From the NCBI GenBank assembly GCA_016868355.1, contig VGHB01000002.1:1-64000 (forward strand): DNA of 64,000 nucleotides, written 5' to 3'. The DNA comes from Betaproteobacteria bacterium (GTDB lineage Bacteria; Pseudomonadota; Gammaproteobacteria; Burkholderiales; Burkholderiaceae_C). The notes beneath the pieces were generated by a model that had not been told where the DNA came from, searched no databases, and was given only the letters and a program-made list of their open reading frames with translations. The stretch's first letter is position 1; each line of letters starts with the position of its first letter. Positions 18,998 to 22,828 of the stretch are shown here, one piece after another. A program made the translations under genes and the position numbers.

Positions 18998-19019
18998 TCC
19001 TACTTTTTGAGTGCCGCCC

Positions 19020-20576
19020 ATGTTCGCTAGACGCAGCAACTCCGACCCGGTTTCCCGTGGTTACCTTCGTGCGACCCGTTTCGCACCAGCATCCATCGCC
19101 CGGTGCCGCCTGCAGGGGGCCCTGGGCGCCCTGAGCCTGAGCCTGGCAACAGCGGCCGCAACGGGCGCGGCGGCCGTCGGCGCGGTCTGGCCCGTGCAGG
19201 TCCAAGCCCAGGCCCTCAGTGGCCTGCCCGACTTTACCGATTTGGTCGAGCGAGTCGGCCCCAGCGTGGTCAACATCCGCACCACGGAGCGCCCCAACCG
19301 CGGCAGCCGCGGCGAGATGGACCCGCAGATGGAAGAGTTCTTCCGGAGATTTGGCATCCCAATGCCCGGCATGCCCAACCCAAATCCGGGCCGCCGCGGC
19401 TCACCTCGAGGCGGCGAAGACGAGCAGCCCCAACAGCGCGGGGTGGGCTCGGGCTTCATGCTCACTGCTGATGGCTTCATCATGACCAACGCCCACGTGG
19501 TGGACGGTGCCGACGAGGTGCTGGTGACCCTGCCGGACAAGCGCGAATTCAAGGCCCGCATCGTCGGGGCCGATACCCGCACCGACGTGGCGGTGGTGAA
19601 GATTGAGGCCGCTGGGCTGCCTGCGGTCAAAATCGGCGACACCAATCGCCTGAGAGTGGGCGAATGGGTGATGGCCATTGGTTCGCCCTTTGGCCTGGAA
19701 AACAGCGTCACCGCCGGTATTGTCAGCGCCAAGCAGCGCGACACCGGTGACTTTCTGCCCTTCATCCAAACCGATGTGGCCATCAATCCGGGCAACTCGG
19801 GCGGCCCGCTCATCAACCTGCGCGGCGAGGTGGTGGGCATCAACTCGCAGATCTACAGCCGCTCGGGCGGCTTCATGGGCATTTCCTTTGCCATCCCCAT
19901 TGACGAAGCCATGCGCGTGGCCGACCAGCTGCGCGTCAGCGGCCGCGTGATCCGTGGGCGCATCGGTGTGAGCCTCGGCGGGCAGGTGAGCAAGGAAGTG
20001 GCCGAATCGCTGGGCCTGGGCAAGCCCACCGGTGCACTGGTGCAAGGGGTGGAGTCGGGCAGTCCGGCCGACAAGGCCGGCGTGGAGCCGGGTGACATCA
20101 TCTTGAAGGTCGATGGAAAGCCGGTGGAAAAGGCGGGTGACCTGCCGCGCCTGATCGGTGCAGCCAAGCCGGGTTCGCGCACCACCTTGCAGGTGCTGCG
20201 CAGGGGTGCCACGCGCGACGTCGCGGTGACGGTCGGTGAATTTGAACCCGAGCGCCCACGCCGCGCTGCGTCCGGTGCAGAGCCGCGCGACAGCGCGACC
20301 TCCAAGCTGCCCTTTGGCCTCACCTTGGCCGATACCACCGAAGCCCAGCGCAAGGAACTGCGCATACGCGGTGGCGTGCGGGTGGAGGCGGTGGAAGGCC
20401 CAGCCGCGCGTGCAGGCTTGCGCGAAGGCGACGTCATCGTGGCCTTCGACAACCAAGAAGTGGCCGATGTCAAGCAGGTTGCGGCGCTGGTGAAGAAGGC
20501 CGAGGGCAGCCGGGCCGTACCGCTGGTGGTCAACCGCGGGGGGTCCACCAATCTGTTGGTCCTTCGGTCGCGATAG
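19020..20576 (+). CDS. mucD: Periplasmic serine protease, DegP/MucD family
   Basis: 518 residues from the ATG at 19020; a GTG at 19011 is an alternative. A long N-terminal signal region (hydrophobic from about 33 to 60, then VQVQAQA) directs export. The trypsin-like triad is His159 in TNAHVVDG, Asp189 in RTDVAVVKI and Ser260 in PGNSGGPLI. Two PDZ domains follow, the first with GALVQGVESGSPADKAGVEPGD, the second with GPAARAGLREGDVIV. It degrades misfolded envelope proteins and can act on the sigma-E pathway. It sits directly behind rseA; the rseB gene usually found between is absent. Confidence 0.93.
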   Translation: MFARRSNSDPVSRGYLRATRFAPASIARCRLQGALGALSLSLATAAATGAAAVGAVWPVQVQAQALSGLPDFTDLVERVGPSVVNIRTTERPNRGSRGEMDPQMEEFFRRFGIPMPGMPNPNPGRRGSPRGGEDEQPQQRGVGSGFMLTADGFIMTNAHVVDGADEVLVTLPDKREFKARIVGADTRTDVAVVKIEAAGLPAVKIGDTNRLRVGEWVMAIGSPFGLENSVTAGIVSAKQRDTGDFLPFIQTDVAINPGNSGGPLINLRGEVVGINSQIYSRSGGFMGISFAIPIDEAMRVADQLRVSGRVIRGRIGVSLGGQVSKEVAESLGLGKPTGALVQGVESGSPADKAGVEPGDIILKVDGKPVEKAGDLPRLIGAAKPGSRTTLQVLRRGATRDVAVTVGEFEPERPRRAASGAEPRDSATSKLPFGLTLADTTEAQRKELRIRGGVRVEAVEGPAARAGLREGDVIVAFDNQEVADVKQVAALVKKAEGSRAVPLVVNRGGSTNLLVLRSR

Positions 20577-20916
20577 GCCGGGGGGGCGCCCTGGCCTAAA
20601 GCCCAGTGCTTATGTGGGGTTTTCAGAGGGCCGCTGTGATGCCCACAAAGATGGCCAAGGTGATGTAAGTATTCGCTCACTTGAAACCCTGACAACCGGG
20701 ATGCCGGTACCGCGCCCGTTACAATGCATTGCGGGTGCAAAACCAAGCCTGTTTGGCCCCGTTTCCCACCATTTCGGTGGTGTTGTGGTGGCCTGATGGC
20801 ACGGGCCTTGACAGCAGAATGTCTTCGTTCCGGGCCTCTTCTCGGCTTGTGGATAACCTGTTTACAACTTTTGGTGTTGGAACACCGCAACGGCGCTATC
20901 CCCAATGTTGGCGCGG
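20577..20916. other. Intergenic region between mucD and lepA, mostly unassigned
   Basis: About 340 bases without a credible gene. It contains a perfect DnaA-box match, TGTGGATAA (20848-20856), and a palindrome GGTGTT-GG-AACACC (20873-20886). A minus-strand stretch near 20624-20677 would encode a short hydrophobic peptide but has no start codon in frame. No convincing promoter pair is visible before 20917. Confidence 0.5.
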
Positions 20917-20944
20917 TTTCCAGCAAGGCGCTTTTCGCTAGAAT
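20917..20944 (+). promoter_or_regulatory. Candidate promoter for the lepA leader RNA
   Basis: TTTCCA (20917-20922) and TAGAAT (20939-20944) are spaced 16 bases apart and resemble sigma-70 boxes (4 of 6 and 5 of 6 matches). Transcription would begin near 20951, exactly at the first hairpin of the leader. The match is moderate, so this is a prediction. Confidence 0.45.
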
Positions 20945-20950
20945 GAAAGC

Positions 20951-21014
20951 CCAACAAGCAGTTGCCATACGTTTTGTTGGAAGGCGCGTCATCATTTCGA
21001 CGCGCCTTTTTTTT
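20951..21014 (+). ncRNA. Short structured leader or small RNA ending at an intrinsic terminator before lepA
   Basis: Two hairpins back to back. The first pairs CCAACAA (20951-20957) with TTGTTGG (20974-20980) around a 16-base loop. The second is a 10-bp perfect stem, AAGGCGCGTC (20981-20990) with GACGCGCCTT (20999-21008), followed by a T8 tract (21007-21014): a textbook intrinsic terminator. The lepA ATG begins only 5 bases later. Transcript from the promoter above would be about 64 bases. It could be a free small RNA, or an attenuator controlling the lepA-lepB-rnc-era run. I do not recognise a named RNA family. Confidence 0.6.
20981..21014 (+). terminator. Intrinsic terminator immediately upstream of lepA
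   Basis: Ten perfect base pairs, 8-base loop, eight T residues. It is the clearest intrinsic terminator in the window and sits between the mucD gene and lepA, ending 5 bases before the lepA ATG. Confidence 0.85.
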
Positions 21015-21019
21015 AGTCC

Positions 21020-22824
<1,805 letters not shown>

Positions 22825-22828
<4 letters not shown>

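Follow-up and report, generated by a model that had tools for sequence, protein, structure and literature searches.

A conserved predicted RNA encoded before lepA, with no match in Rfam, is a probable start-codon repressor of histone-like proteins

Introduction

What is the function of a short element that stacks a promoter-like pair, two hairpins and an intrinsic terminator directly before the start codon of lepA, the gene of elongation factor 4? The element was met in a Betaproteobacteria bacterium (GTDB family Burkholderiaceae_C, assembly GCA_016868355.1) on contig VGHB01000002.1, of which positions 1 to 64,000, the whole stretch of DNA analysed, are referred to as the window. An earlier note on this DNA had offered two readings. 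One was a gene for a short RNA (about 64 bases), lepA then depending on readthrough for its expression; the other was an attenuator governing the whole run of genes that begins with lepA.

Results

Structure of the lepA leader

The promoter-like pair, the 7-bp hairpin and the 10-bp terminator with T8 described in the earlier note were all found where it had placed them (Table 1). The -35-like word TTTCCA and the -10 box TAGAAT are separated by a spacer of 16 nt. The terminator arms are AAGGCGCGTC (20981-20990) and GACGCGCCTT (20999-21008), and the T8 tract spans 21007-21014, its first two T belonging to the paired arm; AGTCC then separates it from the lepA ATG at 21020, i.e. a gap of 5 nt. The ends given for the RNA are those predicted from the -10 box (5′ end near 20951) and from the T-run (3′ end). 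The mucD-like protease gene upstream lies on the same strand as lepA. The claim that lepA is not preceded by a ribosome binding site was correct, yet this is ordinary, with an SD-like word at -20 to -4 for only 6 of 150 lepA starts in the family.

Table 1. Coordinates and support of the features of the lepA leader and of the predicted target genes.
Feature	Position or locus	Strand	Length	Support or remark
Upstream Do-family serine protease gene (mucD-like)	19011..20576	+		TIGR02037, 481.6 bits
Exact DnaA-box consensus (TTATCCACA on minus strand)	20848..20856	-		Conserved offsets in relatives
Second DnaA-box-like word, 11 bp further	20859..20867	-		Two mismatches to TGTGNATAA
Inverted repeat GTTG-N7-GCAAC, possible operator	20876..20891	.		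Near-fixed distance to -10 box
-35-like TTTCCA	20917..20922	+		Similar word GGTTTCC common in clade 1
-10 box TAGAAT	20939..20944	+		TANAAT in 131/131 RNA-bearing loci
Small RNA gene (predicted)	20951..21014	+	~64 nt	Fold, model, conservation
5′ hairpin, CCAACAA (20951-20957) / TTGTTGG (20974-20980)	20951..20980	+		Fold, consensus fold
Loop seed GCAGUUGCCAU	20958..20968	+		All 11 nt complementary to AUGGCAACUGC, found at starts of histone-like genes
Intrinsic terminator, 10-bp stem and T8	20981..21014	+		Terminator scan, arm search
lepA (elongation factor 4)	21020..22828	+		TIGR01393, 959 bits
Predicted target 1, gene of SWIB-domain protein with lysine-alanine histone-like tail	L216		132 aa	PF02201
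Predicted target 2, gene of histone H1-like protein	L219		144 aa	PF07382, NF038053

Folding of positions 20949-21016 resulted in two hairpins with an energy of -28.1 kcal/mol (z = -6.2), and 0 of 200 shuffles were as good. The terminator arms with their spacing occurred only once in the window even with three mismatches allowed (expected 0.01), and this terminator was at the top of the list for the 19-kb region scanned. The totals of the scans did not exceed chance, with 16 terminators in 19 kb vs 14.9 in shuffles, and 2 promoter matches in 19 kb vs 2.4 expected for the promoter match by itself, and the case for an RNA therefore rests on conservation.

At the gathering score, zero Rfam matches were obtained across the whole window, and at weak thresholds nothing credible was returned for the RNA stretch. 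The candidates suhB/mmgR (RF00519, 20.7 bits vs a gathering cut-off of 41) and STnc390 (RF02056, 18.7 bits vs 50) were rejected.

Conservation in the family

The lepA loci of relatives were picked by the LepA protein and not by the RNA in 200 family genomes, and upstream regions were read for the 150 best LepA scores of the 200 (30 loci and 120 regions), the most distant quarter being left out. The pattern CCAAC..GUUGCC..GUUGG was found exactly within 450 nt upstream of lepA in 127 of these 150 loci, and with slight tolerance and a T-run in 131. In the 131 RNA-bearing loci, the -10 box reads TACAAT (125) or TAGAAT (6), and its start precedes the hairpin by 12 nt in 128 loci and by 13 nt in three; this TANAAT box, kept at fixed spacing, supports a promoter belonging to the RNA.

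Hardly any variation was seen in the loop word GUUGCC or in the stem CCAAC/GUUGG, and in the 30 closest loci GTTGCC and CCAAC/GTTGG do not vary at all. Hairpin and terminator are conserved together with the -10 box in the 131 loci. Covariation in the close set was weak, 2 of 19 pairs being changed on both sides, which is due to the near invariance of the outer stem. The consensus fold of the 30 closest sequences consisted of two separate hairpins. A MAFFT alignment of both clades was misaligned and was left out of the pair counts and of the model.

A covariance model of the 30 closest sequences matched 167 of 200 family genomes and 117 of 141 genera. In the source genome it gave one strong match; a second copy of the RNA was rejected there, the next best matches having 21.1 bits or lower.

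A scan of named genomes, which required the loop sequence and is therefore silent on loop invariance, returned at least 119 stretches, of which 80 were listed. Among the matches listed, the RNA was of two sequence types, the first in records of Roseateles, Rubrivivax, Aquabacterium, Leptothrix and Ideonella, and the second in those of Acidovorax, Variovorax, Comamonas, Rhodoferax, Limnohabitans and Polaromonas; the RNA of the window is of the first type. lepA was located within 400 nt behind the hairpin in 69 of the 80 listed loci, and five ended before lepA could show. Five of the 80 (L085, L093, L139, L145, L157) were chance matches without promoter or terminator. On a MAG contig (L096, 5747-5822) the RNA has a TATAAT box and no lepA in the following 2.2 kb.

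None of 80 lepA upstream regions read outside the family, 60 from other families and 20 from other orders, contained the RNA core. An order-wide model search, with strict filters that may lose weak matches, produced eight hits outside the family, all weak and without the core, which when read by eye were terminators. At six loci (L320, L323, L330, L339, L347, L349) the RNA sequence is lost, and TACAAT, a different hairpin and a terminator-like stretch remain by eye. In the open-licence PMC library, no paper was found on an sRNA upstream of lepA, or on lepA together with small RNAs of B. cenocepacia or Comamonadaceae, and lepA was not mentioned in the accessible part of a review of B. cepacia complex sRNAs.

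By sequence and conservation, the element has the traits of an sRNA gene, i.e. an own promoter, an intrinsic terminator with a U tail, an intergenic location, and a conserved exposed seed complementary to conserved distant translation starts.

Loop complement in the source genome

The seed complement TGGCAACTG is present at 31 sites in the genome (17+14) vs 29 (19+10) for the reversed pattern, hence without genome-wide enrichment against this control, and GGCAACTG was found at 4 sites in the window vs 5.2 expected. When 30 of the 31 sites were examined, leaving out the strand opposite the RNA gene, the sense sequence AUGGCAACUGC was identified in two copies, both at start codons, namely those of the SWIB-domain and histone H1-like protein genes of Table 1. 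Joint folding of the RNA with each target start predicted an 11-bp helix for which the 5′ stem opens (ddG -11.3 and -10.0 kcal/mol). Raw duplex energy does not single out the two targets, which rank at 4% and 8% among 298 other stretches. In the same genome, one further M-A-T-A-K-K start (G000:C6:3470) is spelled GCA-ACA-GCC, a spelling also found outside the family.

That a trans-acting RNA has other or additional main targets would be compatible with action on histone-like genes. A single short seed would need less conservation than is seen in the loop and the two strands of the stem, and the genome has 27 further TGGCAACTG sites, of which three (L221, L222, L228) are followed, 12-28 nt on, by a possible start ATG of a longer ORF. 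None of these other sites among the 30 carries the full sense AUGGCAACUGC, and we regard main targets elsewhere as unlikely.

Start-codon spelling in relatives

Starts coding for M-A-T-A-K-K were searched in the relatives with any synonymous codons, and were present in at least 188 of 200 family genomes; most of these genes were counted by their start alone, not individually classed as histone-like. Where the RNA model was present, GCA-ACT-GC was the spelling of 128 of 139 starts among the matches listed, with at least one such start in each of 64 genomes among the matches listed. Where the lepA locus was without the RNA core, it was found in 11 of 26 genes among the matches listed (16 genomes), and outside the family in 16 of 92 listed starts, the differences giving Fisher p = 3.7e-8 and 1.3e-32, respectively, with kinship ignored. 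Genomes without a model match and with the lepA locus outside the reading set had it in 13 of 17 starts among the matches listed. One genome counted as RNA-lacking (G095) has a weak covariance-model match. Counted by genus, at least one perfect site was found in 45 of 45 RNA-bearing vs 8 of 12 RNA-lacking genera (p = 0.0013, kinship again ignored). Perfect sites therefore persist without the RNA in those eight genera, and are not strictly tied to it.

There were 11 exceptions to this spelling in RNA-bearing genomes, and the three examined (L432, L448, L457) do not look histone-like. In 27 genes from RNA-bearing genomes, 19 histone-like and 8 SWIB, codons 2 and 3 were GCA and ACT without exception, when the wobble position of codon 4 and codons 5-12 varied, so that the constraint ends where the pairing with the loop ends. 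In one RNA-lacking genus, both the histone-like gene (L451) and the SWIB gene (L452) have changed codons 2-3. In some relatives a third type of lysine-rich gene, ending ..RALKKLKDAT (L436, L441), also starts with ATGGCAACTGC.

In four genes of the window, GCA makes up 16 of 181 Ala codons and ACT, the rarest Thr codon, 3 of 79 Thr codons. The third codon, Thr, was ACT in 130 of 139 RNA-bearing cases listed vs 29 of 92 outside the family. As a second codon, GCA also leads in the genes from other families and beyond (54/92), and part of the bias may thus be ordinary preference in the start region.

Readthrough and termination before lepA

In RNA-bearing family loci, the distance from the end of the T-run to the lepA ATG ranges from 0 to 186 nt. 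Loci of one sequence type mostly have 43-47 nt, those of the other mostly about 104-120 nt, and the window has 5 nt. At some loci the T-run touches the ATG. Neither at these zero-gap loci nor in the window would a promoter fit behind the T-run, and lepA is therefore probably reached by readthrough, from the promoter of the RNA or from one further upstream. The lack of room claimed in the earlier note accordingly holds in the genus of the window and at the zero-gap loci, and its first option, the short RNA gene with readthrough into lepA, gains support from these loci and from conservation. In clade 1, six loci (L004, L013, L018, L030, L031, L033) have a spacer of about 105 nt with hairpin-like repeats between the RNA and lepA; the window is without this spacer.

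Terminators before lepA were also found beyond the RNA. In other families of the order (60 of 117 loci, mostly best-scoring, from about 34 families by label count), a perfect-stem terminator was located within 140 nt of lepA in 35 of 60 loci, compared with five of 300 shuffled sequences and one of 59 control stretches. Of these 35, 25 start 13-25 nt past a -10-like word and 23 have GGGCAC in the stem. At the other-family loci (L353-L411) the terminator often lies 5-20 nt before the ATG. Within the family, a terminator was found within 250 nt of lepA in 140 of 150 loci vs 3 of 149 controls, and outside the order within 140 nt in 5 of 20. The layout with a terminator before lepA may therefore predate the conserved loop, and a role in cis may be the older one; alternatively, some of the other-family terminators are plain terminators of the upstream gene.

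The same observations bear on a leader that acts in cis only, in which the RNA would be a by-product of a terminator setting the lepA operon, and the loop would serve a protein or ligand that tunes termination. The frequent other-family terminators, often past a -10-like word, agree with it, as do the several lineages in which the RNA sequence is lost and a -10 box, another hairpin and a terminator are still seen by eye, and the leaders of the window genus and of the zero-gap loci, where a lepA promoter would not fit behind the terminator. It leaves unexplained the near-invariant loop and its exact complement at the histone-like starts, the distance from T-run to ATG varies over the full range given above, and no conserved antiterminator pairing or alternative fold, leader peptide or aptamer was seen by eye in the short leader; we consider a purely cis-acting leader quite unlikely. 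The leader may also be an attenuator governing the whole lepA run, the second option of the earlier note, and the terminator of the RNA probably gates lepA.

It is very unlikely that the terminator merely ends upstream transcription and that the histone match is codon preference at lysine-rich protein starts, as, despite the same-strand gene upstream and the general favour for GCA at codon 2, conservation extends jointly to the -10 box, the hairpin and the loop, with their spacing kept, and ACT at the third codon is far commoner beside the RNA than outside the family, though it is the rarest Thr codon in the four window genes.

Upstream DnaA boxes

The exact word TTATNCACA occurs 29 times in the 2.7-Mb genome (control 10), and one of these sits before the RNA promoter. 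Of 130 RNA-bearing loci, 105 have the inverted repeat GTTG-N7/8-GCAAC roughly 63 nt upstream of the -10 box, and 83 of these 105 have at least one exact TTATNCACA on either strand in the 150 nt upstream. Within one mismatch, TTATNCACA was present at two conserved offsets, spaced by 11 bp, with 99 loci for one and 74 for the other (69 with both, 104 with either), and at five shifted offsets in none.

Control of the RNA promoter by DnaA is offered as a suggestion only. It could be part of one device in which DnaA sets transcription of the RNA, the RNA silences the histone-like and SWIB starts, and readthrough sets lepA and the following genes. This coupling gained weight because the control with shifted offsets gave 0, and as a whole it is a tentative idea, somewhat doubtful to us. 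If true, the replication state of the chromosome, nucleoid packing and translation-related genes would be tuned together.

Discussion

Proposed mechanism

The predicted RNA, its conservation, its complementarity to start codons and the conservation of these starts at the level of codons, as read from the DNA, point to a trans-acting RNA of about 64 nt from the lepA leader. We think it probable that this RNA represses the mRNAs of nucleoid proteins at their start codons and that lepA is expressed by readthrough. The RNA would be transcribed from its own promoter, with the 5′ hairpin presenting GCAGUUGCCAU in its loop, and would end in the terminator with a U tail. In the cell, 10-11 nt of the loop would bind AUGGCAACUGC, which spans the start codon and codons 2-4, in the mRNAs of histone H1-like (HC2-type) proteins and histone-tailed SWIB-domain proteins. 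Such pairing would block the initiation of translation, repression being the inferred direction of the effect. Transcripts that read through the terminator would supply lepA and probably the genes behind it. Repression of histone-like genes at the start codon appears the likeliest main task of the RNA, and was invisible to the reader who had written the earlier note.

The locus thereby provides, for a large betaproteobacterial group, a concrete and conserved candidate for the regulation of histone-like proteins. That a terminator closely precedes lepA across many families of the order bears also on the cellular control of LepA/EF4.

Comparison with known small RNAs

Three systems were compared on the basis of the accessible parts of the cited papers. 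Bordetella S17, or Burkholderia bdhR1 (RF02278), is an sRNA conserved over Betaproteobacteria, and similarly has exposed sites that match sequences near ribosome binding sites (PMC11722255). S17S differs, being 67 nt long and processed from a 190-nt form, with a conserved 5′ end beside a C/U-rich loop (PMC11722255). Identity with RF02278 was rejected, as this family was absent even from the weak Rfam list for the RNA stretch.

In Escherichia coli, GraL is made from the greA leader, where about one third of transcripts read through for greA, and it is reported to act in cis and in trans, nudE being the most likely trans target (PMC6829880). By sequence, the layout is alike in the two leaders, each having a promoter, a very short RNA and an intrinsic terminator ahead of the downstream gene. 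The downstream gene (lepA) and the sequence are different, as are the targets, nudE for GraL vs the predicted histone-like mRNAs.

The closest likeness in mechanism is with IhtA of Chlamydia, which represses the histone-like HctA; it is 107 nt long with three stem-loops, and hctB is not repressed (PMC4355289, PMC3469542). IhtA binds the histone-like mRNA at its initiation codon with a hairpin loop towards the 5′ side, through a 7-nt region around the AUG, and it ends in an intrinsic terminator (PMC4355289, PMC3469542). In the predicted pairing the loop of the lepA-leader RNA likewise covers the AUG of a histone-like mRNA, and this RNA, too, would end in an intrinsic terminator. The likeness is one of mechanism, drawn from published descriptions. 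In contrast to IhtA, the RNA described here has about 64 nt, two hairpins, a match of 10-11 nt and a gene before lepA, and its predicted targets are an HC2-family protein and a SWIB protein. Because size, fold and place differ, it was not classed as IhtA. If the proposed mechanism is true, silencing of histone-like mRNAs at the start codon by an RNA loop occurs beyond Chlamydia.
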